In this document: one piece after another, positions 679 to 55,729 of the stretch
How the letters are laid out: every line of letters starts with the position of its first letter
Numbering within the stretch: position 1 is the stretch's first letter
Assembly: GCA_017449025.1 (NCBI GenBank)
Contig: JAFSKJ010000082.1
Location: forward strand, 1-64,000
Reading direction: 5' to 3'
Source: Prevotella sp.
Lineage (GTDB): Bacteria > Bacteroidota > Bacteroidia > Bacteroidales > Bacteroidaceae
DNA length: 64,000 nucleotides
Made by a program: the position numbers and the translations under genes
The notes under the pieces: generated by a model
Databases searched by the model: none
What the model was told of the DNA's origin: nothing
The model's input: only the letters and a program-made list of their open reading frames with translations

Positions 679-1845
679 ATGAAACCAGTAAAAATACTCA
701 GCGTTGACGACGAGATGGACCTTGAGTTGCTTCTCACACAGTATTTCCGCCGCAAGATTCGCAAGGGTGAATACGAGTTCGTTTTTGCCCACAACGGTTT
801 GGAGGCACTGACTATGATGGTGAAGCACCCCGACATAGAGATTATTCTGTCGGACATCAACATGCCCGAAATGGACGGCCTGACGCTGTTAGCTAAGGTG
901 AACGAGATGCGCAATCCCGCGCTGAGAGTTATCATGGTAAGTGCATACGGCGACATGGGCAATATTCGTCAGGCAATGAACAACGGTGCATTCGACTTCG
1001 CCACAAAGCCCATCGACCTTGATGACCTGAGTGTGACGATAGAGAAAGCCATTGAGCAGATCAACTACGTCCACCAGATGCAGAAGGAGCACTCGCAGTT
1101 AGAGTCGCTGAAGGGCGACCTGGCCGTGGCCAGCGAAATACAGCAGGCCATCCTTCCGAGGGTGTTCCCGCCATTCCCCGAGGACTCAGACAAGCTGGAC
1201 ATCGCCGCATCGATGACACCTGCAAAAGACGTTGGCGGCGACTTCTACGACTTCTTCCGCATCGACGAAGACCGCATAGGCTTCGTCATTGCCGACGTCA
1301 GCGGAAAGGGCATCCCGGCAGCCATCTTCATGGCTGTCAGCCGCACACTGATACGTGCAACAGGGGTGCACGGCGGCAGTCCCGCCGACTGTCTGACCTA
1401 CAGCAATAAGCTGCTGGCAGAAGAATCGGTGGACTGTATGTTCGTCACCGTGTTCTATGGAATCTTAAACATGAAGACGGGCGAGATAAGCTACTGCAAC
1501 GGCGGCCATAACCCGCCTTACGTGCTGAAACGCAGCGGAAAGGTGGAGATGCTGCCTATGTCGCAAGACCCGATGGTGGGTGCCATCGACGGCATAGAGT
1601 ACCACGAAGCCAAGCTGCAGCTTGAGCAAGGCGACGCATTAGTGATGTTCACCGACGGCGTGACTGAGGCCATGAACATAAACAACGAGGAGTTCGGCGA
1701 GGAGCGCTTGGAAGACACGTTAGCGGAGGTGACGCTGCACAACTGCCAGCAGATAGTAGATGCCATCAAGGCCGACGTGGCCGCCTTTGTCGGCGAAGCC
1801 GAGCAAAGCGACGACATCACTGTGCTGGCCCTGAAGAGACTTTGA
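679..1845 (+). CDS. Response regulator with PP2C/SpoIIE-type serine phosphatase output (RsbU-like)
   Basis: A 388-residue cytoplasmic signalling protein. Residues 1-120 are a receiver domain with the acidic pocket D10-D11, phospho-acceptor D59 (LSDINMPEMDG), S88 and K110. A helical linker (about 121-160) contains the VASEIQQAILPR motif that precedes SpoIIE phosphatase domains. Residues about 170-388 are a PP2C/SpoIIE phosphatase with metal-binding Asp residues in DVGGDFYD, ADVSGKG and SDDITVL. In known systems such proteins dephosphorylate anti-sigma antagonists, or another phosphoprotein, when the receiver is phosphorylated. It is the first gene of a run ending in the NRPS and could be the response partner of the histidine kinase at 6362. 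No anti-sigma antagonist (STAS) or HPK-type kinase gene is seen nearby. Confidence 0.93.
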   Translation: MKPVKILSVDDEMDLELLLTQYFRRKIRKGEYEFVFAHNGLEALTMMVKHPDIEIILSDINMPEMDGLTLLAKVNEMRNPALRVIMVSAYGDMGNIRQAMNNGAFDFATKPIDLDDLSVTIEKAIEQINYVHQMQKEHSQLESLKGDLAVASEIQQAILPRVFPPFPEDSDKLDIAASMTPAKDVGGDFYDFFRIDEDRIGFVIADVSGKGIPAAIFMAVSRTLIRATGVHGGSPADCLTYSNKLLAEESVDCMFVTVFYGILNMKTGEISYCNGGHNPPYVLKRSGKVEMLPMSQDPMVGAIDGIEYHEAKLQLEQGDALVMFTDGVTEAMNINNEEFGEERLEDTLAEVTLHNCQQIVDAIKADVAAFVGEAEQSDDITVLALKRL

Positions 1846-1885
1846 ATTAATAATTTACAATTAATAATTCACAATTAATAATTAG
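1845..1885. repeat. AT-rich direct repeat aattaataatt x3
   Basis: Three near-identical copies of aattaataatt separated by ta/ca-rich linkers fill the gap between the phosphatase gene and the next gene. Similar AT-rich stretches occur at 22984-23012 and 46501-46513. It may simply be intergenic filler, but it is repetitive. Confidence 0.6.
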
Positions 1886-1898
1886 TAAAAATCGATAA

Positions 1899-3458
1899 TT
1901 GAAGGTTAATAGAAACATAGTAACGGGAGTCCTGGGCGTACTGCTATTGGCAACGACGACGGGAGGGCTGGTAGGCTGGTACACGGAGCATCAGCGCGTG
2001 ACCGACTTAGAGAGCCAGCTCGTCAGGGCCCGGCAGCAGGAGCAGCGATCGGCTGTGGTGCGCAGCGTGAGCAAGCAGATGGAAGAGATTGCCTACCAGC
2101 AGAAGGAAATCTCAGAAGAGCAGCGCGAGGAAGCCATCCAGCAGAAACGGGTGGCCGACGAAATGCGACAGCGCTCTGAAGTGGAGCGTATGAACGCCCT
2201 CGTTGCACGGGAGCAGGCCGTCGCTTCCGAAAGGCAGGCACAAGAGGCCCGCCAGGTGGCTGAAAGCGAACGGCAGATGGCCGAGCATCAGCGCATACAG
2301 GCTGAACTGTCGAAGCGCATTACCGACACCTTGAGCTATGTAGCCTTAGCACGTTCCTTAGGTTCGCTGTCGTCAACACAGACGCAGTTGGGCAACACTG
2401 AGGTGGGCGACTTGCTGGCTTATTCGGCCTTTCAGTTCATCGACCGCTACCAGGGCGACGTCTATTATCCTGCTATCTTCCATTCGCTGATGACAGCCAG
2501 CCGGACAAAACGCTCGTGGTCGGAACACAACGGCTCACTGACGGGACTGGCCTACATGTCGAATACCGACAACCGCATTGTAACGGTCAGCACCTACGGC
2601 GAAATCATGATTCACAAAAAGAACGGTGACTATCTGCAGAGCGAGACACTACTGAGCAACAACAACTATGACTTCCGCGACGTGTTCATCGACGACGAGA
2701 TCATCTACGCCGTCAGCCGCAGCGGTCATCTGGTCATCATCGACCACGGTAATCCCACGATAATAGAACTGCCCGCCCTTGACTACCCCATGTGGATTAC
2801 CAATCTTGACGATGACAACCTGCTGCTGATAGGTGACCACGGGCTTGCACAGTACGAGAAGCGGCGCAAGATGATAGTTGCCACCCGCGAACTGGACTTC
2901 CGGCTGACGGCTTCGCAGCGCTACAACTACCTGCCCATTCTCTTCGATGACCGCGGATGCCAGCACGTTGTGAAGAACATCAATGAACTGATTACCACCG
3001 ACGTGCCGGTGCCTGGGCGGGTGACGGCGTTTGCCAGCTCGAAGAACACCAAGCAACGGGCCTACGGAATGAGCGACGGCACCATCTACTTGTTCGACGA
3101 GACCAGCGGCTCGTCCACCAAGCTGGAGGGACACCTGTCGCGCATCTCAAGGCTGAGAATCAACGGAAGGCGGCTGTTCTCGGCCAGCTACGACGGCACG
3201 ATGAAACAGTGGAATACGGGCAGCAGTAAGATTGAGCCGATGACGCTTATCTCCGCCGGCTCGTGGATTATGAACTTCACTTTAGACAACTCAAAGCAGT
3301 ACGCCTGGATTGGCGACCAGAACGGCAACCTGACAGAGGCCCTGCTCTCGGTACCCATGATGGCAGAGAAACTGAAAGCGCAGTTGAAGCGCAACTTCAC
3401 CACCGATGAGTGGAACTACTATATTGGCAGGAATGTACCATACGAAAAATTCAAATGA
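1899..3458 (+). CDS. Membrane-anchored coiled-coil protein with C-terminal WD40/propeller-like domain
   Basis: The start is TTG at 1899; the first in-frame ATG is about 60 codons in and would lose the N-terminal membrane segment (NIVTGVLGVLLLATTTGGLV). That segment is followed by a long Gln/Glu/Arg coiled coil (about residues 30-145). Residues about 200-490 look like degenerate beta-propeller blades, including a WD-like blade (RLFSASYDGTMKQWN). The tail DEWNYYIG...VPYE resembles the C-terminal signature seen in bacterial WD40/STAND-type proteins. Its stop codon overlaps the start of the next gene (ATGA), so the two are translationally coupled. It probably sits at the membrane as a scaffold or sensor for the neighbouring kinases. 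No enzymatic motif was found. Confidence 0.75.
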   Translation: MKVNRNIVTGVLGVLLLATTTGGLVGWYTEHQRVTDLESQLVRARQQEQRSAVVRSVSKQMEEIAYQQKEISEEQREEAIQQKRVADEMRQRSEVERMNALVAREQAVASERQAQEARQVAESERQMAEHQRIQAELSKRITDTLSYVALARSLGSLSSTQTQLGNTEVGDLLAYSAFQFIDRYQGDVYYPAIFHSLMTASRTKRSWSEHNGSLTGLAYMSNTDNRIVTVSTYGEIMIHKKNGDYLQSETLLSNNNYDFRDVFIDDEIIYAVSRSGHLVIIDHGNPTIIELPALDYPMWITNLDDDNLLLIGDHGLAQYEKRRKMIVATRELDFRLTASQRYNYLPILFDDRGCQHVVKNINELITTDVPVPGRVTAFASSKNTKQRAYGMSDGTIYLFDETSGSSTKLEGHLSRISRLRINGRRLFSASYDGTMKQWNTGSSKIEPMTLISAGSWIMNFTLDNSKQYAWIGDQNGNLTEALLSVPMMAEKLKAQLKRNFTTDEWNYYIGRNVPYEKFK

Positions 3459-6358
3459 CCATGATGTACAAGAAACTGCTGATACCCATATTTATCATTT
3501 TTCCTTTGTTCATTAGCTCCGCAAGGGCTCAAGGGATTCCTTTCCTCCGCAACTTCACAGCCAAGGAATACAACGGACACAACCGTAACTTTGATATTGT
3601 GGTGGGTGAGGATGGTACAGTCTATGTTGCCAACTTTGAGGGCCTGATGTATTACGACAACGTGGAGTGGCGCATGATTCATACGCCGGGCATCACCCGT
3701 GTCACGGTGGCCTACCGCGATGCAAACGACATTATTTGGGCGGGGGGCTACAACTACTTCGGCCGCATAGATAAGAAGCCCAACGGCGAACTGTATCTGC
3801 ATCAGGTTGGAAAGACAGGAGCGTTCCACGGCGAGGTAGGAGAAATATGGGAAACTGGCGGAGAGTTGCTGTTCCTGGTCAACGATGGCAACATCTACAA
3901 GGTAGAGGGCGAGCAAATTGTCGTCAAGAAGAAAGTGAGCGGCGACAAGTTAGGCATAGGCATGTCGGACATTGTACAGACTGATGCCCTGGACATGAAC
4001 AGCAAAGTGGTGGTGCTGGATGACATTACGCAGACGGAACCATTGGAAAACGGCCTGAAGGTTGTCGTGAAGAGAAGCGAGGGACTCATCGTCACCGACG
4101 AGAACGACAAGGAACTATACACCATCACCGAAGCCAATGGACTGTGTACCGACAATGTGGTGTGGGTATCCTACAATGGCCACGGCCTGTTGTGGGGAGC
4201 TACCGAAAACGGAATATTCTCGATGGCCATTCCGTCGGCCATTTCGCATTTCACCAGTCACGAAGGACTGGATGGCGAGGTACTCTCAATCGAGGAACTT
4301 AATGGAAAGATATATGTCGGCACAAACAGTGCCCTTTATCGCTTGGAGGGCAAACAGTTCGTCGAAGTGCCCGGCATCAACCATGCCTGCTGGGCACTGG
4401 TGAAGAGCGGCCAAAGCCTGTTAGCAGCTACAACAGGGGGTATCTACCGCATCGCTGCTAACGGCACTGTCAGGCAACTGAGCACGAAGCTCTCTTCGGC
4501 AATCCTTGACGAAGGATCACAGATATACAGCGGTGAACTGGACGGCGTGTATCGGATACAGACATCGGACAACAGCATCAAGAAAGCGTGCGGACTGGAG
4601 AAAGTGACTAAAATATTAAAAGATGGGGATGGCACCATCTGGCTGCAGAGCACATTCGGGGAAGTGTGGAACAAGAAAGCCAACGAGACGGACTTCCGGC
4701 CATATAAAATAGGAGCGGTGGAGGATGCTTTGACTATAGTCCCGTTGGGCGACAAAGTGGAGGCCGTCAGTGCCGTTGCCACAACGCCGTTCCCGTACCC
4801 TCGCCTCTCGTATCAGGACGAGAACGGCGTCACATGGCTGACGGACAACGATGGAAAATCGCTTTATAGGTGGAAAGACGGCAAGCGGTTGGACGACATG
4901 AGCCAACTGCTGACACCCATCGGTGATATTTCGGTAGGTGCTATTCTATACCACGACCACGAGTTATGGATAGGCGGCGACAATGGACTGACGGTGATTA
5001 ACACAGGCATGAAAGACCCCGCACTGCAGACCAAGCCCCGGCTGCTGTTCCGATCGGTTGTCCTAAACAGCGACAGCATACTGTGGGGTGGCTACGGTGA
5101 TATGCCGAAACAGCTGCCTGAGCTGTCGAGCAGCGACAGGAACCTGCGCTTTACCTACGCCGTCGACTTTCTGCCCTTGGTGGGAGCCACCCTCTACAGA
5201 TACAGGCTGAACGATGGCAGCTGGAGCGCTTGGGCCGAGGACAACGATGCGGAATTCATCAACCTGTCTCATGGTTCGTACACCATCAGCATCCAGGCTC
5301 GTCTGGCCACTGGCGAAGAGACCGAGGTGACGACGATGGACTTCAGCATAGCCTACCCATTCTACGTGCGATGGTACATGCTCTTGTTCTATTTCCTATT
5401 GGTTGCGCTGTTTGTCTATGCTTTATTCCGCTACCGTCTGCATCGTCTGAACGTGGAGAAACACCGGTTGGAGAGCATTGTACAGGAACGAACCGCTGAG
5501 GTGGTGAAGCAGAAGGACGAAATCGAAGAGAAGTCGAAGAGTCTGGAAAAAGCCCTCGACGAACTGAGCAACGCCCAGCATGAGCTGATACGCCAGGAGA
5601 AGATGGCCACCGTGGGTAAGCTGACGCAGGGACTCATTGACCGAATACTGAACCCTATGAACTATATCAACAACTTCTCGAAGCTCTCCGAGGGGCTGGT
5701 CAAGGATATCGAGGCGAACATCGAGGACGACAAGGACAACATGAACGAGGATAACTATGAGGACACGATGGACGTGTTAGGTATGCTACGCGGTAACCTG
5801 CAGAAAGTGGGGGAGCACGGCCAGAATACCACCCGCACGCTGAAAGCGATGGAGGAAATGCTGAAAGACCGCAGCGGCGGCATCGTGCCCATGAACCTTG
5901 TATCGGTGTTGCGACAGGACGAGGATATGCTGCGCAATTACTTTGCCGAGGATATCAACCGCTATGGCATCAAGACGACGTTCGACGTGCCCCAGAGCGA
6001 CATCACCATCAACGGTAATGCCGATCAGCTGAGCAAGACTATGATGAGCCTCTTGGGCAATGCCATCTATGCCGTTGGCAAGAAAGCCCAGCGTGAGCAG
6101 TTCCAACCGGAAGTTTCTGTCAATGTAAGCACCGACACCCACGTCCACATTGCCATCCGCGACAACGGTATCGGCATCGAGGATACTATCATCAACAAGA
6201 TATTCGACCCCTTCTTCACCACCAAGACAACCGGCGAGGCTGCCGGCGTAGGTCTGTACCTGAGCCGGGAAATCTTACAGAACCACGGCGGTGACATCAG
6301 CGTGAAGTCAGAAAAGAATGTTTATACGGAGTTTATCATCACATTACCAATCTCTTAG
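3455..6358 (+). CDS. Propeller-type membrane sensor histidine kinase lacking the phospho-accepting His
   Basis: The ATG at 3455 overlaps the previous stop. Downstream ATGs at 3461 and 3464 are also possible; all precede a signal peptide (KKLLIPIFIIFPLFISSARAQ). Residues about 30-540 form a two-component-regulator beta-propeller, followed by a Y_Y_Y-like domain (about 560-630). One membrane helix lies near 636-662, then a coiled coil (about 670-710). The dimerisation segment reads LTQGLIDRILNPMNYINN: the H-box His is Asp (D729) and the following Glu is Arg, although NP is kept. The ATPase part looks intact (LLGNAIYAV, DNGIGI, FDPFFTTK, GVGLYLS). It probably senses a periplasmic ligand and either signals without autophosphorylation or partners the intact kinase just downstream. 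The gap to that gene is 3 bp. Confidence 0.88.
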   Translation: MTMMYKKLLIPIFIIFPLFISSARAQGIPFLRNFTAKEYNGHNRNFDIVVGEDGTVYVANFEGLMYYDNVEWRMIHTPGITRVTVAYRDANDIIWAGGYNYFGRIDKKPNGELYLHQVGKTGAFHGEVGEIWETGGELLFLVNDGNIYKVEGEQIVVKKKVSGDKLGIGMSDIVQTDALDMNSKVVVLDDITQTEPLENGLKVVVKRSEGLIVTDENDKELYTITEANGLCTDNVVWVSYNGHGLLWGATENGIFSMAIPSAISHFTSHEGLDGEVLSIEELNGKIYVGTNSALYRLEGKQFVEVPGINHACWALVKSGQSLLAATTGGIYRIAANGTVRQLSTKLSSAILDEGSQIYSGELDGVYRIQTSDNSIKKACGLEKVTKILKDGDGTIWLQSTFGEVWNKKANETDFRPYKIGAVEDALTIVPLGDKVEAVSAVATTPFPYPRLSYQDENGVTWLTDNDGKSLYRWKDGKRLDDMSQLLTPIGDISVGAILYHDHELWIGGDNGLTVINTGMKDPALQTKPRLLFRSVVLNSDSILWGGYGDMPKQLPELSSSDRNLRFTYAVDFLPLVGATLYRYRLNDGSWSAWAEDNDAEFINLSHGSYTISIQARLATGEETEVTTMDFSIAYPFYVRWYMLLFYFLLVALFVYALFRYRLHRLNVEKHRLESIVQERTAEVVKQKDEIEEKSKSLEKALDELSNAQHELIRQEKMATVGKLTQGLIDRILNPMNYINNFSKLSEGLVKDIEANIEDDKDNMNEDNYEDTMDVLGMLRGNLQKVGEHGQNTTRTLKAMEEMLKDRSGGIVPMNLVSVLRQDEDMLRNYFAEDINRYGIKTTFDVPQSDITINGNADQLSKTMMSLLGNAIYAVGKKAQREQFQPEVSVNVSTDTHVHIAIRDNGIGIEDTIINKIFDPFFTTKTTGEAAGVGLYLSREILQNHGGDISVKSEKNVYTEFIITLPIS

Positions 6359-6361
6359 GTT

Positions 6362-7183
6362 ATGGAACAGCAGATAGAGACCCTACAACAGCAATTGAAA
6401 AAGCAGGAGAAGCTGGCATCGTTAGGCATGTTGAGTGCAGGCATAGCGCACGAAATCCAGAATCCCCTGAACTTCGTCATCAACTTCAGTAAGATGTCCG
6501 ACAAACTGCTGAAGGACTTGGCCGAGATTGTGGCCGACAACGAGGACAATCTCCCGGACGACGACCGCGAAGAAGTGGAGGACATCGTTGCCGACCTGAA
6601 AGAGAACTTGGCGAAGATTGTGGAACACGGCGAAAGAGCCATCAGCATCATCCGGGGCATCCTGTTGGTGTCACGCGGCAAAGACAACGAGTTCCTGCCA
6701 ACCGACGTGAGCAAGCTGGTGAAGGAATACGTGTGGCTGTCTTACCACGCCATGCGCGCCAACCAGAAGAACTTCAACATCAGCATACATGAGAACTATG
6801 AGGAGGGCTTGCCCCTGATGATGGTCATCCCGCAGGACCTAAGCCGGGCTGTGCTCAATGTGATGAACAACGCCTGCTATGCCGTATGGAAGAAGTCGCA
6901 GACTGCTGAAGCAGGCTATCAGCCGGAGGTCAACATTGCGGTGAAGAGTGCCGACGGCAACATCGTCATCAGCATTGCCGACAACGGCGAAGGCATGACC
7001 GACGAGGTGAAGCAGCACCTATATGAGAATTTCTTCACCACCAAGCCGGTGGGACAAGGCACGGGCCTCGGCATGGCCATCACCCGCGACATCATCGAAG
7101 ACAAGCACCAAGGGCGCCTCACCTTCGACTCCGAGGAAGGCAAGGGTACCACTTTCACGTTCACCATACCCATCAGGAAATGA
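6362..7183 (+). CDS. Soluble sensor histidine kinase (HisKA-HATPase)
   Basis: A 273-residue kinase without membrane segments. A short coiled coil (1-18) leads into an H-box with H30 in LSAGIAHEIQNPLN. The HATPase_c domain shows an N-box (VMNNACYAV), G1 (DNGEGM), an F-box (NFFTTKP) and G2 (GTGLGMAITRD). The helical insert between the H-box and ATPase domain (residues about 45-85) is rich in Asp/Glu and resembles that of the upstream pseudokinase. The two probably share ancestry and may heterodimerise (inference). It starts 3 bp after the pseudokinase and overlaps the TonB-receptor start by 4 bp. The likely phosphate acceptor is the receiver at 679. Confidence 0.93.
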   Translation: MEQQIETLQQQLKKQEKLASLGMLSAGIAHEIQNPLNFVINFSKMSDKLLKDLAEIVADNEDNLPDDDREEVEDIVADLKENLAKIVEHGERAISIIRGILLVSRGKDNEFLPTDVSKLVKEYVWLSYHAMRANQKNFNISIHENYEEGLPLMMVIPQDLSRAVLNVMNNACYAVWKKSQTAEAGYQPEVNIAVKSADGNIVISIADNGEGMTDEVKQHLYENFFTTKPVGQGTGLGMAITRDIIEDKHQGRLTFDSEEGKGTTFTFTIPIRK

Positions 7184-9609
7184 AGAAGAGTCTATACCTT
7201 ATTATATATATAATGGTCGTACACTTGGGCTCGCTGAATATCAACGCCCAAGACAACAGCACCCTCCGCCAGATATATTCGCAGGCAGAGAGTGACTACC
7301 AGTTGGGACGGCTGGAGCAGGCTATAGACTTGCTGCAAACCCATCAGAACAACTTCCAGGGCAACATGAGGCAAAACGTTTACAGACTCATCTCGCTTTG
7401 CTATCTGGCTCAGGACAGCCTGCAACAGTCGGAAATCTACGCCTCGCTGTTGCTCAAGGAAAACCCCTACTATACCTCTGTCCAAGACCCCATCCGATTC
7501 GAGGAAATGGTCAATAGGCTGAAAACAGGTAGCAGTGCCACGGTGACAACGGCCTCGAGTCAGGCAGAACGTATTGAAGAGGCTCCTGTTCCTGTGATTA
7601 TTATCACAAGAGAAATGATAGAAACGTTAGGTTACAACAAAAGTCTGAACCAGTTATTAGCAACCTATGTGCCAGGTATGGCGGAAGTGGCCTCGAACTA
7701 TATGGATAACATGGCTATGCATGGTGCCTACACCTCCAATCAGGAGAAAATACTTGTCATGGAGAACGGCCATCGTCTGAATACCCGCTCTACCAATAGC
7801 GGAAGAATGGACTACTCCATCAGTACAGACAAGATTGACCATATTGAAGTGCTGCGCGGCCCTGCTTCTTCGCTGTATGGAAACGTGGCACTCTCTGCCG
7901 TTGTTAACATCATTACCAGAAGCGGACGAAGCATTGACGGTGTAGAAGCCAAATATGGCTATGGCAGTTTCGGAACACACAAGGGCGATTTCATGATAGG
8001 TACCAGCTACATGAATACCGACATCTTTGCTTGGGCTTCCATCTACAAGTCGAACGGCCAACAGCGTCGTATGTCTGACGGCTTGGGGTATGAAGAACAG
8101 TGTTTTGCCGCCTACTCTACAGATCAGGAATACGACAACAGTGGAATAGCTCATATTGCCACATACAAAGACACTCCTGCCTATGATATCGGCCTGACGC
8201 TGAAAAACGGGGACTTTTTCTTAGGCTTCAGCCGGAAAAACAGCAAAAAGGCATCACAGTATGCCTACTACAGCAACTACGACTACGACCTGTACCGTGA
8301 CTTCGACGGCATAAAACCTGGCTACAACATAGAAGACATGCATGCAGAACTTGGGTATTCTCACCAGTTCCGGAACATTGGCTTGTCGGCCACGTTTTAC
8401 GGAGACTGGTATAATTTCACGGATTACAGCGTCATTGCCGAGCATATCTATTATCCTGACTTCAACAATGATGGAACTGTGAAACTGAACGAAGACGGAG
8501 TTCCCGTCATCAAATTGTGGGATGGTTTCTATCAGGTATATAATTGGAAAGAACATACACTTGGCGGGAATGTAAAGGCGAGCACTGACTATAAGACAGG
8601 CGACATGAAAGGCAACCTGCTCGTAGGTTGTCAGTATGAATATTTCACGCTTTCTGACACTTATGGCATGCTGGGTGCCGACTATGACTCTACGGCCATC
8701 TTCACCCGTGCATCGAAAAATACCATCAGAGTGGGACATGAGACAGGACTCTCATTCTACGCACAGGACAAACACTATTTCTCAAGCCGTCTGATTCTTA
8801 ATGCCGGTTTACGCTACGATGTCAAATTCCGTGCCAACGACACCAAGGTCAGCGCTTTGTCGCCCCGACTGGCTTTGATCTACATTCCCAACAGCCTTTT
8901 CAGTATGAAGATTTCATACTCCAAGGCTTTCGTTGATGCGCCCTACTTCTATCGGTTCAACTCGGACAACACCTATAGGGGACTTGAGAACCTACAGCCA
9001 GAGTACCTGAACTCAGTGCAATTCGATGTACTTGGCAAAATTGAAAGCTGGCATCTTAATTACGACCTGAATATTTTCTACAACCGGTTCAAGAACCTCA
9101 TCTACCTTGACCCGACAGCCGGACTTGAAGATCAGAAATACCTGAATTCAGGACGCCTTGAGAACACCGGCATAGAAGTATGTGCCAGCTATTTATACAA
9201 GCGATTATCGGGCAACTTGTCTTTCTATTATTGCAAAGACCTGAAAGCACAGGACTATTATTTCAGCCAAGATGAAAAGCAAGTGTATTCCGTCCCTTCC
9301 ATAACTGCTAACCTGCATCTGGGATGGAAGCCCATGATAACGAGCAAGCACGAAGTCCAGCTGTACGGTAACTTGCAGTACATAGGCCGCAAGCTGATGG
9401 TATCGCCAACATTTGACGATTTCTATATTGCCGACCGAACCCTATTGGATGTAGGCATCAGCTACAAGTTCATGAACAGAGTTAAACTTTCCTTTGATGT
9501 AGAGAATATTTTCAATACCGACAGTTATGTATGCGGCCCCACCGTTTTGGTCTTTCCATACTTCCAACGCGGCAGAACACTGATGGGGAGCATATCTTTC
9601 TCCTTATAG
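7180..9609 (+). CDS. TonB-dependent outer-membrane receptor with N-terminal TPR-like domain
   Basis: An 809-residue outer-membrane protein. A signal peptide ends near residue 24 (LNINAQ). Residues about 28-105 resemble tetratricopeptide helices (YSQAESDYQLGRLEQAIDLL) rather than the carboxypeptidase-regulatory domain common in Bacteroidota receptors. The plug spans about 130-255 (VIIITREMIETLG ... IEVLRGPASSLYGNVALSAV), followed by a 22-strand-type barrel ending in the C-terminal aromatic-rich strand MGSISFSL. No SusD partner follows. Its position between the kinase and the NRPS suggests it transports or senses the NRPS product, or a metal complex of it (inference). It overlaps the kinase gene by 4 bp and precedes the NRPS by 12 bp. 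Confidence 0.92.
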   Translation: MKKSLYLIIYIMVVHLGSLNINAQDNSTLRQIYSQAESDYQLGRLEQAIDLLQTHQNNFQGNMRQNVYRLISLCYLAQDSLQQSEIYASLLLKENPYYTSVQDPIRFEEMVNRLKTGSSATVTTASSQAERIEEAPVPVIIITREMIETLGYNKSLNQLLATYVPGMAEVASNYMDNMAMHGAYTSNQEKILVMENGHRLNTRSTNSGRMDYSISTDKIDHIEVLRGPASSLYGNVALSAVVNIITRSGRSIDGVEAKYGYGSFGTHKGDFMIGTSYMNTDIFAWASIYKSNGQQRRMSDGLGYEEQCFAAYSTDQEYDNSGIAHIATYKDTPAYDIGLTLKNGDFFLGFSRKNSKKASQYAYYSNYDYDLYRDFDGIKPGYNIEDMHAELGYSHQFRNIGLSATFYGDWYNFTDYSVIAEHIYYPDFNNDGTVKLNEDGVPVIKLWDGFYQVYNWKEHTLGGNVKASTDYKTGDMKGNLLVGCQYEYFTLSDTYGMLGADYDSTAIFTRASKNTIRVGHETGLSFYAQDKHYFSSRLILNAGLRYDVKFRANDTKVSALSPRLALIYIPNSLFSMKISYSKAFVDAPYFYRFNSDNTYRGLENLQPEYLNSVQFDVLGKIESWHLNYDLNIFYNRFKNLIYLDPTAGLEDQKYLNSGRLENTGIEVCASYLYKRLSGNLSFYYCKDLKAQDYYFSQDEKQVYSVPSITANLHLGWKPMITSKHEVQLYGNLQYIGRKLMVSPTFDDFYIADRTLLDVGISYKFMNRVKLSFDVENIFNTDSYVCGPTVLVFPYFQRGRTLMGSISFSL

Positions 9610-9621
9610 ACAAGTGATAAA

Positions 9622-12600
9622 ATGGACAACAAACAGATAACACTAATTGAGCGATTCAAAGAAATTGCAGACAGAAAGCCTGATGCCATTGCCGTAAAAG
9701 ACAAAAAGCAGATTGTCACTTACAGGCAATTGGACATGTGGTCAGACCATATAGCATCTGCCATACTCAAGAGAGTAACATACTGCGATGAAAAGTGCTT
9801 CATAGGCATCTATGCCCAGCGGACCGTTTTGCTGCCTGCCATGTACCTCGGAGTGTGGAAGGCCGGTTTTGCTTATCTGCCAATGGATCCAGCCCACGTG
9901 GCAGCACGGCAAGCCTCCATCATCAACGACTGTGCACCTGCATTAATACTTACAGACACTGAAGCCGTTCCTCCCGTAATAGGTGATACTGCTTATCTAT
10001 ACATTCAGGGCGAATCCATGACAGACACCCCAGACTTTGTAGTCCAGCCCCCATGCAGATATGCCTATATCATCTACACTTCAGGCACTACTGGCACTCC
10101 TAAAGGAGTTCCCATCTTGCAGCGCTCGTTAGACAATCTCGTGGATGCTCGGCAAGATTTTATTCCTGCTGCAGAGAACGAAACAGAGCTATGCTATGCC
10201 AGCATCTCCTTCGATGCATCGGTATGGGAGATTTTCCCTGCCCTGCTGACGGGCACCTCCATATATATAGCCGACGACGAGGAAAGGCATAATCCGAATG
10301 CGTTGGTTCAGATTATGGAAGAACAGCAGATATCCGTTGCCACAATTCCTCCCGTCATGCTCAGCATCCTCCCCTACCGCCACTTGCCCCGACTTCGGTA
10401 TTTGGTCGTGGCGGGTGAGAAATGCCCTGAGGCAACCATACGCAAATGGCAAAAAACGTGCAAGGTAATCAACGCCTACGGTCCAACGGAGGCAACTGTA
10501 TGCGCAACAGCCTGCATCTTGAATGAAAACAGCCATCCAAATGACATTGGGACTGCACTACGTAACATGTCTTGCCACATTCTCGACGAGCATCTCAAGC
10601 CAGTAGCAACAGGTGAGAAAGGCGAGTTGTACATTGGCGGTGTACAACTGACGGAAGGCTACTGGCACGGAAAACAAGCCAACGAGAGTTTTGTCTCGCT
10701 AACAGATGTAGCAGACGGAGCACGGCTATATGCTACGGGGGACATTGTTTATGCCAACAATGAAGGGCATCTTGTCTTCTGCGGACGTAAAGAAAAAGAC
10801 TCACAGGTGAAGATTCATGGCTACAGAGTGGAATTGGGTGAAGTCCAAACTGTTATTGAGCGTTTCCCACATGTCAATGCTGCGGTTATTGAGACTCAAG
10901 GACAGGACAGCAATGCCACTATGCGGGCCTATATTGCCACAGATGACCACAACCTCGACATCAAACAGTTGAGAGACTACCTTGCCAAAGAACTGCCCTC
11001 TTTTATGATCCCTGCCATTCTCTTCCCTGTACAGACCATTCCATATAATCTTCATGGAAAGACCGACTTTGAACAGCTGCATCGCCTATACCAGAACAGT
11101 GTGGAGTCACAGACTTATGGGGATGAGCAATTTGATGATATAGAACGCCAGATTGCTAAAATGTGGAGAAAAGTCACTGGCAGCAATGCCCCCATCAGCA
11201 GGTCAACCCATTTCTATGAGTTTGGCGGTGATTCCGTGACAACAATTCTCATGAGCATGGAGATAGAGACAGAGTTTAAGATAGAACTCGCTCTTGATGA
11301 TGTGTTTACACATTTGCGTTTTGAAGAGCTTGCCCAGTTAATCAGACAGGCAAAACCAAGTGAAACTCAAAGAAAAATACGCACAGGACAGCGTACAAAA
11401 CTGCCCATTCCACGGCATCTTCACGATTTGTTCATGCATTGTTGCCTGTCAGATGAGACTTCTCAGGCATATAACCTTGCTGTATTCGTGCCCTTTGACA
11501 AAAACCTCAATACTGATTTGCTCTTGAAAGCATGGAACCTGTTGCGCATTACTCAGGATGCTTTGCGCTTCATGTTTACTATCACCGACTTTGGACAGCC
11601 TGAACTATGGCTTCAACCCTTCGACTGTGAATTGTCCATCCCTTTGATTGAAGCAAAGGATGAAGAGATGTGGAACGACTGCAACCAAAGAATATCAACT
11701 ATTATCCCACTTGACCGCCTCTGCTACACTGTTCTATACCACAGGGAGGATGGCAGTTACCTGTTTGCCCTGTTCATCCACCACTTGATTTCCGACGGAT
11801 GGACTGCAAATATCATTAAGCAACAACTGACGGATATATACGCCTCTTTAGTCAGCAACGAACAGATTCTCCTGCCAAACCTTTCCTATAACTATATTGA
11901 TTATGCTATAGACAAAACGAGGAAAGAGGAACAGGACATACAAGAGTTCAGCAGCTATTGGAGAGACTACCTCACGGATGTTGCCGACTTACAGTTTCCC
12001 AGCACCAAGTCTGCCGTATCACCTGACTACACTGCAAGATACATCTATGATGAATTGCCACTTGCAGCCTCTATACAGTTACAGTCCATCTGCAATGAGA
12101 ATCATGTCACCATGTTCTCACTGTTTTCTGCCGCCTACCTGGTAACCCTGTCCCGTTTTTGCCGTCAGGACAGTTTCGTCATAGGTTATCCGTCAGCAGG
12201 CAGATCATCAAACCTTTGTTCCGATGTCATTGGCTACTACGTCCATACGCTCCCGCTCAGATACCATGCAGAATATCAACAATTGTCATCAATAGAATTA
12301 TGCAGACAGTTACAGCATGACATATTGCAGGGTGAGAGCCACCTGCTTTCATTGAGCAGCATCATCTCATCAATGGACATGCCTTCCAGCATGTCAGACA
12401 GCCCTCTCATTCAGACCATCCTGACTGTCGAGGAAGCCGGACTTGAGAACCAGCATCTGCATAATAAATATGCCCACTTCCCATTGACGCTGTTGGTCAT
12501 CAAGGATCTCAATTCCCTGAAACTCCAATGGATGTACCGCCACGTACTGTTTTCTGCCGACCACATCAAGGACTTATCCCATTGTCTGGTAAACCTCCTT

Positions 12601-15222
12601 GTCCGTATCGCCCACCATCCCCATATGCCGATGGCGGAAATGGCTTTGGCCTCTGACGAGGAAATAGCAAAGATGAAGACAGCCAATACCATCTATCCCT
12701 TTGTCACTCCCAAGGAAAACATCATCGATTTGTTCAAGGCACAAGTTCGTACCAGCCGTCATCCATGGATTTTGAAAGATGCCCACAGCCAATTGTCATT
12801 CCAGGATTTCGACCAGCAGTCCGACAGTCTGGCTGAACGTCTGCTCCGTCAGGTTCCCGTTCATGCAGCCACCGGCCTCTTCATGTATCGTTCCGTCAAG
12901 GCCATTGTAGCCATGATGGGAATCCTCAAAGCCGGACACATGTATGTTCCCATGGACCAGACCTATCCCGACGAGCGACTCAAGACCATGATTTTAGATA
13001 GCGGCATGAAGTGCATTGTTTGCAACCGCGAACTCACCGACAGCCTCAGACGCCTCAACCTAAGCCCGGAAGTCAACATAATCATCTTTGAGGAATGTAT
13101 GGAAAAGCCATGGCCCCTCACCCTGCAACCTCAGCCCATCGACAGCCAGACACCTGCCTACATGATTTACACGTCAGGAACCACAGGAAAACCTAAGGGC
13201 GTCGTGATCAATCATGGCAATGTCACATCGTTCGTCACCATTGGAGTCAGAGACCGATTCCTTCCGTCGCCCGACGACATCGTGCTCCAGTACTGCTCCT
13301 ATCTGTTTGACGTGTCAGTCAACGACATCTTCACCACCATTCTTCACGGGGCGCGGCTTGTCTGCATCGACGAAGAAGAGCGACGAGACCCCCACCGTCT
13401 TTTCAACATTCTCGAGAATGAGAAGGTTACACACGCCTACATTGCGCCCGCCTTCCTCCTGGCATGCAACAAGGAGGCCACCTCTGCCTTGCGGACACTT
13501 ATTGTAGGAGGAGAAGCTCCTGCCCAGACACTTGTCGACCGCTACACCCCACACCTGAACATGATTAACGGCTATGGACCCACAGAGAACACCGTCTTCA
13601 GCACGTCACACAATTATAACCAGACACACATCTATGCAGCCAACTGCATTGGCAAAGCACTCACTGGCGTCACCTGCTACGTTCTTGACCATAGCCACCT
13701 TCCCGTTCCCGCCGGCTGTCCTGGCGAACTGTTCCTCGGAGGCTTGCAGCTGTCTCCCGGCTATCATAAGCGGCCAGAACTCAACAAAGAACGCTTCATC
13801 AGCAATCCTTTCATAACAAGCCAGGACGCCCTCAGAAACCAGAACACCCGCATATATGCCACTGGCGATATTGTAGTACAAGACACCAACGGCAACATCT
13901 TCTATCTCGGGCGCAAGGACTTCCAAGTGAAGATTCGAGGCTTCAGGGTAGAACTGCACGAGATAGAGAGCATTCTGACAAAGCATCCTGACGTCAGCCA
14001 GTGCATCGTACAGGTTCGCCGTCATAACGTCACCGACCAGCTGGCCGCCTACGTCATTTCTCCCAATCCAGATCTTGAGCCGCACCAGCTGAGAGAGTTC
14101 CTTACTCCTTACCTCCCCTCCTATATGATTCCCGACAGCTGGTACATCGCACCAAGCCTGCCACTCAACAGCAGCGGAAAGATTGACCGCCGCCATCTGC
14201 CTGAAAGCACCTTATTGCCAAGCCAGGCTTCTGATGAGGAATGTACTGAGGAAGAGACAAAGACAAAGACACTTGTGTCCAGGATTACCGACATTCCTGC
14301 CGAGGCCATCAAACTTGACGACGACCTGTTCAACGACCACGGCATCAACTCCCTACATGTACTTGAATTAACCCACCAGCTGTCGCAGCGCGGATACAAC
14401 ATCCATCCCACAGACCTCTACCAACAGCGCAGCATCAGGAAATTAGCCGCCTACCTGTCGTCCGACGAATGTACCAAGGGACTGACCGACAAGCAGATTG
14501 ACGAGCGCATCTGTTTCTTCGCCACCCCCGACGACCCAAACAAGCCCATACTCGTCGTGGCTGCCGGCTATCCACATTACGAATGGTTCTACGGCGAGTT
14601 CCACCGACAGTTCAAAGAGAGCTATACCATCCTCGTACTCGAGACACCCAACGAGCTGTACGCCCTCCGGCCAAACCTGCCGCCCACCTGCGATGCCATG
14701 ATCGACGAATACATCCGACTGCTGCGCCCCGTCTTGGAGCGCCGTACCATAGCCGGAGTCACCGGACTCTGCTTCGGAGGCGACATCGCATTGAAATTAG
14801 CCGTCCGGCTCAATCAGTACAACCTTGCTAAGCCAGCCGCTTTCGTCATCGACGGCTATGCCTGCCGCTCAGAATACTCCGACTGGACACTCGTTGAGCA
14901 AGAGGGCATCTCCATGGAACTCATTGTCAAGCGCAACGAAGTGGTCAGCCAGCTCTCGAAGACCATGATTCACGAGTATTACCCAGGCACCACATATCTG
15001 TTCCGCGCCACCGTCTTTGCCGACGAGCCGGGCCAGTCCAAGAAACGCGGAGAAGAACTCTTTCCAAAGAACTGTGCTAACTGGGCAAGAATACAACCTG
15101 ACCTTCACGTCGTACTAATGGACTACGTACACATGGATCTCGTAGTACATCCCGATTCAGTCAAACGAATCAAAAACCATATTGACGCAGAACTGCTGAA
15201 ACAAAGCCCCCTTGCCCCCTAA
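9622..15222 (+). CDS. Two-module non-ribosomal peptide synthetase (A-T-C-A-T-TE)
   Basis: An 1866-residue synthetase. Module 1 has an adenylation domain (1-490; A3 motif IYTSGTTGTPKG near 149) and a carrier domain with phosphopantetheine Ser S538 (FGGDS). Module 2 has a condensation domain (about 590-1030; HHLISDGW with H720/H721 and D725), an adenylation domain (about 1040-1540; YTSGTTGKPKG near 1180) and a carrier domain with S1577 (DHGINS). A thioesterase follows (about 1630-1866). The absence of an N-terminal condensation domain marks an initiating module, so a dipeptide-derived product is expected. Read against GrsA by eye, the specificity pocket of A1 is D-A-W-V-V-A-A-V-C (aromatic-like) and of A2 D-V-N-A-I-G-G-V-F (unassigned). 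The thioesterase has C1717 in GLCFGG, with D1744 and H1837 as likely triad partners. No phosphopantetheinyl transferase or tailoring enzyme is adjacent. Confidence 0.95.
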   Translation: MDNKQITLIERFKEIADRKPDAIAVKDKKQIVTYRQLDMWSDHIASAILKRVTYCDEKCFIGIYAQRTVLLPAMYLGVWKAGFAYLPMDPAHVAARQASIINDCAPALILTDTEAVPPVIGDTAYLYIQGESMTDTPDFVVQPPCRYAYIIYTSGTTGTPKGVPILQRSLDNLVDARQDFIPAAENETELCYASISFDASVWEIFPALLTGTSIYIADDEERHNPNALVQIMEEQQISVATIPPVMLSILPYRHLPRLRYLVVAGEKCPEATIRKWQKTCKVINAYGPTEATVCATACILNENSHPNDIGTALRNMSCHILDEHLKPVATGEKGELYIGGVQLTEGYWHGKQANESFVSLTDVADGARLYATGDIVYANNEGHLVFCGRKEKDSQVKIHGYRVELGEVQTVIERFPHVNAAVIETQGQDSNATMRAYIATDDHNLDIKQLRDYLAKELPSFMIPAILFPVQTIPYNLHGKTDFEQLHRLYQNSVESQTYGDEQFDDIERQIAKMWRKVTGSNAPISRSTHFYEFGGDSVTTILMSMEIETEFKIELALDDVFTHLRFEELAQLIRQAKPSETQRKIRTGQRTKLPIPRHLHDLFMHCCLSDETSQAYNLAVFVPFDKNLNTDLLLKAWNLLRITQDALRFMFTITDFGQPELWLQPFDCELSIPLIEAKDEEMWNDCNQRISTIIPLDRLCYTVLYHREDGSYLFALFIHHLISDGWTANIIKQQLTDIYASLVSNEQILLPNLSYNYIDYAIDKTRKEEQDIQEFSSYWRDYLTDVADLQFPSTKSAVSPDYTARYIYDELPLAASIQLQSICNENHVTMFSLFSAAYLVTLSRFCRQDSFVIGYPSAGRSSNLCSDVIGYYVHTLPLRYHAEYQQLSSIELCRQLQHDILQGESHLLSLSSIISSMDMPSSMSDSPLIQTILTVEEAGLENQHLHNKYAHFPLTLLVIKDLNSLKLQWMYRHVLFSADHIKDLSHCLVNLLVRIAHHPHMPMAEMALASDEEIAKMKTANTIYPFVTPKENIIDLFKAQVRTSRHPWILKDAHSQLSFQDFDQQSDSLAERLLRQVPVHAATGLFMYRSVKAIVAMMGILKAGHMYVPMDQTYPDERLKTMILDSGMKCIVCNRELTDSLRRLNLSPEVNIIIFEECMEKPWPLTLQPQPIDSQTPAYMIYTSGTTGKPKGVVINHGNVTSFVTIGVRDRFLPSPDDIVLQYCSYLFDVSVNDIFTTILHGARLVCIDEEERRDPHRLFNILENEKVTHAYIAPAFLLACNKEATSALRTLIVGGEAPAQTLVDRYTPHLNMINGYGPTENTVFSTSHNYNQTHIYAANCIGKALTGVTCYVLDHSHLPVPAGCPGELFLGGLQLSPGYHKRPELNKERFISNPFITSQDALRNQNTRIYATGDIVVQDTNGNIFYLGRKDFQVKIRGFRVELHEIESILTKHPDVSQCIVQVRRHNVTDQLAAYVISPNPDLEPHQLREFLTPYLPSYMIPDSWYIAPSLPLNSSGKIDRRHLPESTLLPSQASDEECTEEETKTKTLVSRITDIPAEAIKLDDDLFNDHGINSLHVLELTHQLSQRGYNIHPTDLYQQRSIRKLAAYLSSDECTKGLTDKQIDERICFFATPDDPNKPILVVAAGYPHYEWFYGEFHRQFKESYTILVLETPNELYALRPNLPPTCDAMIDEYIRLLRPVLERRTIAGVTGLCFGGDIALKLAVRLNQYNLAKPAAFVIDGYACRSEYSDWTLVEQEGISMELIVKRNEVVSQLSKTMIHEYYPGTTYLFRATVFADEPGQSKKRGEELFPKNCANWARIQPDLHVVLMDYVHMDLVVHPDSVKRIKNHIDAELLKQSPLAP

Positions 15223-18104: not shown

Positions 18105-18592
18105 TTAAAAACGTATTCGGTATAGTCTTCTCCTCGTCCGTTCATGCGGAGTGTGCGAAGAGTCTTGGCCTTGGTGTCAACGGTCAAGACGAACGAGGTG
18201 AAGAGCTGGCGTTTTTTCTTCTCTGTAGGTACTATAGTGACAGTGGTGGCGTTTCCCTTGGTTGTGGCAGTTATGTCGTCGCCCTGGGGAATGGCCTGCT
18301 GGTTGATGACTGCCTTCAGCACCGTATGGAAGGTTGCAAACAGCGGGTTCTTCTTGCTGTCGGTGACGTGCTGGCGTCCACCCATGGTCATGGTAAACCG
18401 TGTGCCGTCCATGATGAGCTGGTCTTTGCCGCCATCGGTGGAAATGGAGATGTAGTCGGGCTTGCGGATGGTAAGTGTGCCGGTGGTGACGACATCGGTC
18501 TTGACGGCCTTCTTATGGCTGGTCTTTGTAACGGTCTGTGCGCTGACGGTCATGGCCAGCATGCAGAATAGAATTGTCAATAGCTTTTTCAT
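18101..18592 (-). CDS. LolA-like outer-membrane lipoprotein carrier protein
   Basis: The start was placed at 18592 (MKKLLTILFCMLAMTVSAQ), because the longer frame adds a non-signal N-terminus. The mature protein of about 145 residues has the LolA fold pattern of alternating beta strands (GTLTIRKPDYISI, GTRFTMTMGG, FVLTVD). LolA-like proteins with an MMPL exporter are a standard pair in aryl-polyene and flexirubin clusters, where they are thought to carry the lipid-like product across the periplasm. It lies just after the MMPL gene and overlaps the DUF5686 gene. Confidence 0.8.
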   Translation of the reverse strand: MKKLLTILFCMLAMTVSAQTVTKTSHKKAVKTDVVTTGTLTIRKPDYISISTDGGKDQLIMDGTRFTMTMGGRQHVTDSKKNPLFATFHTVLKAVINQQAIPQGDDITATTKGNATTVTIVPTEKKKRQLFTSFVLTVDTKAKTLRTLRMNGRGEDYTEYVFK

Positions 18593-18596
18593 GAGG

Positions 18597-21047: not shown

Positions 21048-21493
21048 CTGACAAATATTTTCAAGTCAACTTCGCATATAGTGTCATTGCCTATGCATGA
21101 TTTCCCGTGACATAGCGTCATGGAACCAAACGAGAAGCCCATGGTGATGGTTGTCGTGATTTGCTCGTTGGCACTTGGGCGGCGTTGGCATACGAAATGC
21201 TTCACTTCGGCAATCATGCCCACGGGGGGACTGGCGGCTCCCTGCCGTATTGCCACATGCCCGGCAAGTGCCGAGGCCGACTGGGCGATATGCTCAATCA
21301 GTCCGGACTCAGACATCTCACCACTTGGCAGCATGAAATAGTTGTCCAAGCGCAGAGCCAGCGAGGTGGTGCAGGATGCGCCCGTCAGGCTCCCTGCCGT
21401 TGTGGGTTCCTCACCAGCCTCAAACTCATCGACCATCACAAACGGATTGCGCTGGGGAATAAGTTGCAAAACCTCAACACCTCTATATTTCAT
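21044..21493 (-). CDS. 3-hydroxyacyl-ACP dehydratase-like hotdog protein (ApeP/FabZ-like)
   Basis: A 149-residue single hotdog domain. The N-terminal PQRNPFVMVDEF corresponds to the FabZ PHRYPFLLVD motif, and the central helix ESGLIEHIAQSASALAG carries the expected Glu. The FabZ catalytic His (GHFPG) is not visible at the matching position, where the sequence reads NYFMLPSGEMSE, closer to ApeP-type proteins of aryl-polyene clusters. It probably dehydrates, or only binds, ACP-linked 3-hydroxyacyl chains. It overlaps the exporter gene and follows the ACP gene by 15 bp. Confidence 0.8.
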   Translation of the reverse strand: MKYRGVEVLQLIPQRNPFVMVDEFEAGEEPTTAGSLTGASCTTSLALRLDNYFMLPSGEMSESGLIEHIAQSASALAGHVAIRQGAASPPVGMIAEVKHFVCQRRPSANEQITTTITMGFSFGSMTLCHGKSCIGNDTICEVDLKIFVR

Positions 21494-21508
21494 GCGAAGC
21501 CAAAATTT

Positions 21509-21748
21509 TTACAGGTGCTGCTCAATGTAATCGTACAGACTGTTGAAAGTCTCGATCTTCTTCAGGTCTTCAACCGGGATGGTAATCTTATAGGTTAACT
21601 GCACCAGTGCTATGAGGTCCACCAGGTTGATGCTGTCTAAGCCCAGCGTCTCCTTCAGATTGGCATCGGGCGCAAACTCACTCTGTTCTACTTCAAACTC
21701 TTCTTCCAACAGGCTGTTCACCTGATTAATGATTTCTTGTCTTGTCAT
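21509..21748 (-). CDS. Acyl carrier protein
   Basis: A 79-residue acidic helical protein with the phosphopantetheine attachment site LGLDSINLVDL (S39). It is a discrete ACP next to the ketosynthase and hotdog dehydratase, so it is likely dedicated to this cluster rather than to primary fatty-acid synthesis. Ten bp separate it from the ketosynthase gene. Confidence 0.93.
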   Translation of the reverse strand: MTRQEIINQVNSLLEEEFEVEQSEFAPDANLKETLGLDSINLVDLIALVQLTYKITIPVEDLKKIETFNSLYDYIEQHL

Positions 21749-21757
21749 AATTGTTTC

Positions 21758-22978: not shown

Positions 22979-23002
22979 ATTCCTAAAATATTAATTCATA
23001 AT

Positions 23003-25023: not shown

Positions 25024-25040
25024 AAACTTGTTTTGGGGTG

Positions 25041-25048
25041 CAAAATTA
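25041..25048 (-). promoter_or_regulatory. TAATTTTG -7 element, AraC/ketosynthase operon
   Basis: On the minus strand TAATTTTG lies 17 bp before the chosen regulator start. No TTTG was found at the exact -33 spacing. It supports the shorter start codon. Confidence 0.6.
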
Positions 25049-25216
25049 AACATTTTGTGCCAAATTCTGACGTTCAGAATTTCTTTAAAAGCGTCCGTTA
25101 TGTCATTTTATGCAGGAAAGAACCTTTTTAGGGAATAAACGGACATGAATACAAGACTCCCTTAATCCCCCTTTGGGTGGAAAATCCACAAAACTGCGTA
25201 AATCTTCCAAAATAGT

Positions 25217-53524: not shown

Positions 53525-55729
<2,205 letters not shown>

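Follow-up and report, generated by a model that had tools for sequence, protein, structure and literature searches.

A run of six genes in a draft genome of Prevotella sp. (assembly GCA_017449025.1; 134 contigs, about 81% complete) places a nonribosomal peptide synthetase (NRPS) gene directly behind genes for phospho-signalling proteins and a TonB-dependent receptor. This raises the question of whether a small peptide made by the synthetase is also sensed by the proteins encoded next to it. The window, the whole stretch of DNA analysed, is positions 1 to 64,000 of the forward strand of contig JAFSKJ010000082.1. The synthetase and a matching receptor are joined to a conserved signalling operon as a single exchangeable block, and this suggests that the cell senses its own peptide via an unusual relay.

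The six-gene run and its products

The six open reading frames (coordinates 679 to 15222) are all open and intact, lie on the forward strand and are tightly packed, confirming the operon-like run described in a first-pass annotation. A 53 bp gap follows the first gene, the second and third share a 4-bp ATGA overlap with the third starting at 3455, 3 bp separate the third and fourth, the fourth and fifth overlap by 4 bp, and 12 bp lie between the fifth and sixth. The sequence TAACTTTG (forward strand, coordinates 633 to 640), 38 bp from the first start codon, matches TAnnTTTG, which we take to be the -7 element of Bacteroidota promoters. As the same gene order recurs in relatives (see below), the layout is not due to chance. 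Neither an Rfam match at gathering scores nor a tRNA was found in the window. A defence system was also considered and set aside, as none of the six proteins has a PADLOC match.

The first gene (679 to 1845) encodes a 388 aa response regulator with a SpoIIE-type PP2C phosphatase output (RR-PP2C; Pfam Response_reg and SpoIIE), in which the receiver and PP2C catalytic motifs are intact. The second (1899 to 3458) encodes a 519 aa protein with an N-terminal membrane anchor found by hydropathy, a WD40 propeller (Pfam) and a coiled coil recognised by eye. The product of the third gene (3455 to 6358) begins with a signal-peptide-like segment and has a putative propeller, read by eye and without a Pfam match, a Y_Y_Y domain (PF07495; 1.2e-06), a transmembrane segment (hydropathy; residues 637 to 655 numbered from the methionine at 3464) and a HATPase_c domain; no HisKA, receiver or HTH match was found in this chain using Pfam. 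The fourth gene (6362 to 7183) encodes an intact, soluble histidine kinase (HK) of 273 aa (Pfam HisKA and HATPase_c; HEIQ motif), the only copy found in the window's genome at E ≤ 1e-60. The H-box of HK is IAHEIQNPLNF and its equivalent in the third protein, LIDRILNPMNY, lacks the phospho-acceptor His, hence pseudokinase. The earlier report of a histidine-less kinase beside an intact one was borne out in relatives, where the motif could be located in 109 of 111 pseudokinase rows and reads DRIL in 107 and DRIQ in 2 of them, and HK has HEIQ, HEIR or HEVQ in 88 of 88 kinases. A kinase that, in the rows read, always lacks the histidine and is paired with one that is always intact provides a natural test case for pseudokinase control.

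The fifth gene (7180 to 9609) encodes an 809 aa TonB-dependent receptor (Pfam Plug PF07715 and TonB barrel PF00593). An AlphaFold2 model of the receptor from 22 sequences (mean pLDDT 84.9, pTM 0.81) has helices from residue 27 to 116, residues 116 to 127 at pLDDT below 50, and then the plug and barrel. Residues 25 to 115 (7252 to 7524) form an all-helical, TPR-like N-terminal domain and residues 128 to 809 (7561 to 9606) the plug and barrel, a division that also draws on the co-variation described below; residues 116 to 127 are predicted to be a flexible linker. TPR_2 was detected in 9 of 21 receptor N-terminal domains and STN in 0 of 21 (Pfam, E ≤ 0.01), nor was STN found in that of the window at E ≤ 0.05, and a PDB sequence search with the TPR-like domain returned weak TPR and SusD-type matches only. 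Neither the six genes nor the three past the NRPS gene gave a Pfam match to a FecR-like anti-sigma factor or an ECF sigma factor.

The sixth gene (9622 to 15222) encodes a bimodular NRPS of 1866 aa in the order A-T-C-A-T-TE (Pfam AMP-binding and PP-binding, two of each, and Condensation; TE by motif). The condensation domain (11449 to 12675; Pfam) carries HHLISDG at residue 720, the second adenylation domain lies at 12739 to 14205 (Pfam, with its end set from alignment), and the condensation, carrier and adenylation motifs are all intact. The C-terminal thioesterase-like domain (14539 to 15219), recognised from the motif GLCFGG, had been left unnamed earlier; it has no Pfam match in the window's protein and a PDB sequence search gave nothing useful, and the domain of two relatives matches PF00975 below the cut-off. 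The nucleophile place is taken by Cys in the window and many relatives, and by Ser in others. If the modules are used collinearly, the product would be of two residues. The first adenylation code, DAWTVAAVC, read by eye at what we take to be the GrsA positions, is close to DAWTIAAIC, presumably the code for Phe, and thus suggests Phe; the second, DVNYIGGVF, gave no prediction by eye. Some code positions, read by eye, are not shared between this NRPS and its closest relatives, and therefore their products probably differ.

Two further large NRPS loci are present in the window's genome, and 934 NRPS clusters in rumen Bacteroidaceae are given in a passage of PMC8241843, hence the earlier statement that NRPS genes are uncommon in this phylum fails for this group. 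Differential expression of Prevotella NRPS clusters is also mentioned in that passage.

Two runs elsewhere in the genome were noted. On another contig (C85, L218), a gene for a 2291 aa NRPS and, after it, reading frames resembling MacB/FtsX (two), HlyD and TolC (one each) share one strand, and by eye this is an NRPS with its own exporter. Within the window, a flexirubin/aryl-polyene-like run occupies 15513 to 25053 on the reverse strand and includes genes for a DUF5686 outer-membrane protein, a LolA-like protein (best NCBIfam model flexirubin LolA2, below cut-off), an MMPL-type transporter, a ketosynthase, an AraC regulator and a weak acetyltransferase match, together with a 149 aa hotdog-like reading frame and an acyl-carrier-like one (21509 to 21748), both recognised by eye.

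Distribution of the cassette

Orthologues of the NRPS were found at 10 loci in 398 genomes of the same genus; they align along most or all of its length at 39 to 42% identity. One more locus (G544) is partial and 46% identical over its end. Seven of the ten proteins are 1837 to 1867 aa long, and the other three (G648, G546 and G537) are 2266 to 2339 aa; the one long form tested, that of G648, has an additional condensation domain. All six genes are present in order at five loci (G678, G602, G654, G648 and G546), and at four (G488, G582, G751 and G499) the WD40, pseudokinase, receptor and NRPS genes are found without those for RR-PP2C and HK. The order WD40-pseudokinase-receptor-NRPS is kept in 9 of the 10, and the synteny expected from the first-pass annotation was therefore found in relatives. 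Absence of the signalling genes next to homologous NRPS genes, named there as evidence against it, was seen at one locus, G537, where none of the other five genes adjoins; RR-PP2C and HK are missing from four and the set is complete at five. The family sample (399 genomes, that of the window among them) yielded no close NRPS relative beyond the window itself, matches at E ≤ 1e-60 being 23 to 36% identical, and a scan of named genome contigs with the NRPS found no relative.

Each of the four genomes in which HK is missing from the NRPS branch has one HK orthologue elsewhere (59 to 61% identity, E ≤ 1e-60), and in G488, the one of the four that was opened, it lies within a second WD40-pseudokinase-HK-receptor set. 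Two input branches may therefore feed one kinase in such genomes.

The WD40 protein was used as the marker for locating cassettes in other genomes. Matches were found in 140 of 398 genus genomes (E ≤ 1e-30), in 28 of 389 family genomes from 7 of 30 genera (E ≤ 1e-40), and in 20 of 364 order genomes (E ≤ 1e-40), the last mostly in a different, longer frame. Besides the window's genome, the order-level matches are in 19 genomes, 17 of them outside the family with frames of 1025 to 1060 aa (e.g. G831:C12:48757-50325), which are therefore probably not the same gene. In 10 of the 28 family genomes (including the window's), representing four genera, an NRPS match lies, as read from the coordinates, 4.1 to 6.5 kb past the WD40 gene on the same contig and strand. 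A scan of genome contigs with an alignment of the pseudokinase gave, among the best 80 matches, three cassette loci at the top (50 to 54% identity) from uncultured Prevotella or Prevotellaceae MAGs (red deer, RUG431 and RUG11071); the remaining 77 are kinase-domain matches with 24 to 33% identity.

WD40 matches occur at no fewer than about 150 places, of which 100 were fetched, mostly the most similar with a sample of the tail, and 12 further loci were chosen for their NRPS. In this non-random sample of 111 WD40 loci, RR-PP2C is present at 98, the pseudokinase at 110, the receptor at 97, HK at 88 and an NRPS of one of several architectures at 31 (19 of 99 without the 12 chosen loci), and missing parts are explained in some cases by contig ends. 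Near-copies (e.g. L094/L096, L095/L097, L135/L143 and L136/L138/L140) are included in the counts; L075 to L082 have no WD40 match in the stretch examined and L149, taken as a WD40 locus, has none at the cut-off. Among the 92 loci that could be judged for the receptor and the downstream side, 29 have an NRPS gene and 63 do not. The first-pass interpretation is therefore supported in part, since the proposal of signalling genes reserved for the NRPS was not upheld, and the chassis must serve other ligands too.

The NRPS payloads fall at 813 to 857 aa, about 1.2 to 1.35 kaa, 1.76 to 1.87 kaa, 2.27 to 2.34 kaa and 2.81 kaa. Architectures were examined using Pfam on the window's NRPS and five variants: the forms of 813 to 857 aa have one A and one T domain and the thioesterase-like motif, and those of about 1.2 to 1.35 kaa are C-A-T in both tested. 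The gene order is either receptor-NRPS or NRPS-receptor, and in G653, G755 and G233 a non-orthologous NRPS (25 to 26% identity) accompanies the same RR-WD40-pseudokinase-HK set. Judged by sequence, the chassis is the constant part, and the NRPS with the receptor plug and barrel the variable payload. The unusual feature is the reverse of dedicated signalling, namely a common relay onto which matched synthetase and receptor parts swap as one block.

The cassette is found just past a close homologue of the window reading frame at 53525 to 55729 in L067, L068, L073, L074, L083, L085 and others; by eye this encodes an H+-pyrophosphatase, and in the window it is ~38 kb from the cassette. In many relatives the cassette precedes a gene for a 395 aa protein that has no match among the window's reading frames.

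Co-variation of the receptor with the NRPS

On a receptor tree of 101 rows, the NRPS label requires 3 changes, against 26.2 in shuffles. When all trees are restricted to the same 78 loci, 26 of them with an NRPS, the label requires 3 changes for the receptor, 7 for HK, 10 for WD40, 11 for the pseudokinase and 12 for RR-PP2C, with ~22 in shuffles. Mantel tests used the 25 loci with everything present and the terminal module of the NRPS (last 830 aa), L182 being omitted as its receptor duplicates that of L168. The receptor-NRPS correlation was 0.765 (0 of 1000 permutations as high) and 0.766 (0 of 1000) given the four signalling proteins, and correlations with the NRPS were 0.168 for HK (11 of 1000), 0.079 for RR-PP2C (112), 0.060 for the pseudokinase (177) and 0.023 for WD40 (308). 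Rank-based values were 0.344 for the receptor (0 of 2000), 0.301 after thinning to 17 loci (9 of 2000), and -0.02 to 0.06 for the signalling proteins, the rank correlation being weaker because most NRPS distances are near saturation. This co-inheritance fits the earlier suggestion of a peptide that is made and sensed.

The two parts of the receptor behave differently. Residues 25 to 115 correlate with the signalling proteins at 0.62 (HK 0.74) and with the NRPS at 0.30, and the plug and barrel with the NRPS at 0.64 to 0.80 (barrel 0.77) and with the signalling proteins at 0.11 to 0.25; a sliding window along the receptor places the switch between residues 100 and 125. The barrel correlates with the signalling proteins at 0.22 uncorrected (49 of 2000) and 0.02 given the N-terminal domain (787 of 2000). 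The N-terminal domain retains a correlation with the NRPS of 0.32 given the signalling proteins (0.30 without correction; 0 of 2000 each), and therefore the split is not absolute. The N-terminal domain thus follows mainly the signalling genes and the plug and barrel follow the NRPS, the switch lying by the predicted linker.

The contrast is strongest in the 16 receptor-first loci (N-terminal domain-signalling 0.83, barrel-signalling 0.23, barrel-NRPS 0.945) and absent from the nine NRPS-first loci with the order HK-NRPS-receptor (0.39, 0.42 and 0.61, respectively). In 49 loci without an NRPS, correlations with RR-PP2C and HK were 0.79 for the N-terminal domain, 0.35 for the plug and 0.60 for the barrel. 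As the split is confined to the receptor-first order and the barrel of NRPS-less loci also follows RR-PP2C and HK, some of this pattern reflects linkage to HK.

Eight loci (L104, L109, L110, L114, L117, L125, L127 and L160) encode a receptor of the window's clade with no NRPS gene beside it. No orthologue of the window's NRPS was found in these eight draft genomes, seven of which have other NRPS-like genes, and judging from gene content such receptors are possible listeners.

Exchange of the receptor-NRPS block

Exchange was also visible at the DNA level, where 24 pairs of loci with a chassis distance below 0.26 and an NRPS distance above 0.5 were compared. In the 15 receptor-first pairs, collinearity is lost inside the receptor gene, at codons 108 to 146 in nine and codons 242 to 270 in six, and in the nine pairs that differ in gene order it is lost no more than 84 nt from where HK ends. 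Such a loss may mean divergence as well as crossover. The match resumes 18 to 143 nt past the block in 8 of the 24 pairs, and in the other 16 not within the stretch examined. The co-variation switch and 9 of the 15 ends within the receptor lie at or near the predicted linker, and in some cases the receptor N-terminal domain is left behind.

In the clearest case (L066 and L111), the chassis proteins are about 95% identical (RR-PP2C 98%), with 88% DNA identity from RR-PP2C to receptor codon 125 to 129. The remainder of the receptor and the NRPS differ, and a 92% DNA match is found again 36 nt past the NRPS gene. In L115 and L116 (94% DNA identity; RR-PP2C 99% identical as protein), the receptor, the NRPS and their order differ. 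Collinearity of the window ends at codon 139 with L086 (RR-PP2C 93%) and at codon 108 with L087, with no resumption in either. The reverse case is seen in L067 and L068, where a block from about receptor codon 93 to past the NRPS gene is shared (81% DNA identity) and the chassis is diverged. Near-identical chassis thus bear different receptor-NRPS blocks.

Partner-switch genes as candidate output

The usual targets of RR-PP2C enzymes are STAS proteins that antagonise RsbW-like kinases. An RsbW-type gene (HATPase_c_2, 5.7e-31) and a STAS gene, the latter identified by 44% identity of its product to the STAS protein of L113, are neighbours on contig C78 of the window's genome (L217), unlinked to the cassette. 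All 11 genomes tested encode STAS-like proteins. Directly past the receptor there is a STAS gene in L113, an RsbW-type gene in L131 and L176, and both in L154, with a Pfam basis for L113 and L131 only.

An AraC-type HTH protein encoded beside the STAS gene in L113 was tried as a general output; a strong relative (39%, 1e-38) was found in one of eight genomes and weak AraC-type matches in the other seven, and it is therefore not a constant part. The STAS gene adjoins a coiled-coil AraC-type HTH gene in L113 (11246 to 12126) and L226 (16472 to 17907), the latter also with an RsbW-type gene, and in such pairs the partner switch may act on the HTH protein, not a sigma factor.

Two NRPS-first cassettes (L112, 16522 to 18297; L219, 1541 to 3310) carry, directly past the receptor gene, a gene for a MATE-type exporter whose C-terminus is an RsbW-like HATPase_c_2 domain, identified using Pfam in L112, with the L219 protein 81% identical. 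The exporter thus contains a partner-switch domain of its own. On contig C75 of the window's genome (L216, 9003 to 18852), genes for a dCache-SpoIIE-HATPase_c_2 fusion, a STAS protein and a 2414 aa NRPS lie in a row, so that this genome has another NRPS with a partner switch linked to it, and similar-looking runs were seen in L223, L226 and L228 (Pfam on L226 only).

Comparison with known systems

The cassette resembles pyoverdine-FpvA and FecA-type systems in that the receptor for an NRPS product would be TonB-dependent and carry an additional periplasmic domain at its N-terminus. However, the N-terminal domain here is TPR-like and helical, not STN, and whereas FpvA signals through an anti-sigma/sigma pair, no such pair lies among the six genes and the relay would consist of WD40, pseudokinase, kinase and RR-PP2C. 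The hybrid two-component systems (HTCS) of Bacteroidota combine propeller, Y_Y_Y, kinase, receiver and AraC HTH in one chain. The pseudokinase is similar in having Y_Y_Y, one transmembrane segment and a kinase-like C-terminus, with a putative propeller read by eye, but lacks the phospho-acceptor His, receiver and HTH, and would work together with a soluble kinase encoded separately and a regulator of the phosphatase type. A PP2C domain is also part of HsbR, and the RR-PP2C recalls the HsbR/RssB-type partner switch of Pseudomonas, RssB being its best NCBIfam model (140 bits, below the cut-off of 700). Here, though, it is linked to an outer-membrane receptor, and the RsbW-type and STAS genes of this genome are unlinked. 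The aureusimine synthetase AusA has the domain order A-T-C-A-T, shared by the window's NRPS; among equivalog models AusA fits this NRPS best, at 716 bits with a cut-off of 2500, but the NRPS ends in a thioesterase-like domain with Cys at the nucleophile place.

Keyword searches of open-licence PMC papers, judged by title and start of abstract, found no such receptor-NRPS-phosphorelay system. According to PMC6482189, a response regulator works with an anti-sigma factor antagonist in the HsbR-HsbA switch. A section of PMC11444679 gives FpvA the build STN-plug-barrel, reports that the plug region discriminates receptor groups, and cites work on synthetase-receptor coevolution. In passages of PMC11366639, pyoverdine receptors group with synthetase type, two non-producers retain a receptor, and whether the receptor transfers together with the NRPS is a significant, unresolved question, one case there implying that it does; the block exchange seen here bears on that question.

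Interpretation of the receptor-NRPS cassette

The explanation that we favour, and consider probably correct though far from certain, is a two-part device that senses a self-made small peptide. RR-PP2C, WD40, the propeller pseudokinase, HK and the TPR-like N-terminal domain of the receptor would form a constant chassis acting as a trans-envelope relay, and the receptor plug and barrel with the NRPS a variable block supplying both the peptide and the part that recognises it. The NRPS would make a short peptide, of two residues in the window's version, which would leave the cell and be bound by the cognate receptor. The periplasmic TPR-like domain of the receptor would then contact the periplasmic WD40 and propeller parts, passing the signal inward, and the pseudokinase, lacking a phospho-acceptor, would control the soluble kinase. 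This would phosphorylate the receiver of RR-PP2C, and the PP2C would dephosphorylate a STAS partner, so shifting an RsbW-type partner switch encoded elsewhere in the genome. No exporter gene was found in the six-gene run of the window.

A sub-case with a different purpose is that the peptide is a metallophore, the receptor importing the metal complex and the relay reporting its uptake, as FpvA does for pyoverdine, with cell-to-cell signalling incidental. The best NCBIfam model of the receptor is a TonB siderophore family (below cut-off), the co-grouping of receptor and NRPS has its precedent in pyoverdines (PMC11366639), and receptor loci without a synthetase resemble siderophore users that do not produce. 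However, no known chelator-tailoring or iron gene was found among the six genes using Pfam, a product of one or two residues, one being expected for the one-A forms, is small for a chelator, and most judged cassettes have no NRPS. A metallophore role is accordingly possible but rather doubtful. An antibiotic that inhibits competitors importing it, with the relay monitoring producer density or immunity, would suit the diversity of NRPS payloads swapped on a constant chassis, which resembles arms-race turnover, and the MATE-type exporter past the receptor in two relatives. Yet inspection of gene orders gave no candidate immunity gene common to the cassettes, and a receptor importing the producer's own toxin would presumably harm it, making this quite improbable.

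The pairing might also arise if the block swaps only as neighbours, the receptor importing an unrelated nutrient and the NRPS product being a secreted metabolite co-regulated by it. Receptor and NRPS genes adjoin in all 25 loci used, and as the 16 receptor-first loci, where the N-terminal domain adjoins HK, show the split and the nine NRPS-first ones do not, linkage alone yields part of the split. Physical linkage could thus carry plug, barrel and NRPS together without recognition and may explain part of the pattern. However, HK adjoins the receptor in receptor-first loci yet barely co-varies with the NRPS (0.17), the pairing of receptor clade and NRPS holds across both gene orders and very different NRPS types, and the adjacency is found in further genera, hence we consider hitch-hiking unlikely.

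With reference to the favoured two-part device, we suggest, tentatively and with some reservation, that it may represent a new class of outer-membrane self-communication in Bacteroidota. Plug-barrel and synthetase would swap as one specificity cassette before a fixed relay, giving many mutually private peptide channels, with receptor-only strains listening and, in some species, two receptor branches per kinase. The receptor-NRPS pairing supplies testable ligand-receptor pairs. If the device operates as proposed, bacteria of a major rumen and gut group would use a receptor-coupled phosphorelay to read, at their outer membrane, a nonribosomal peptide of their own making.
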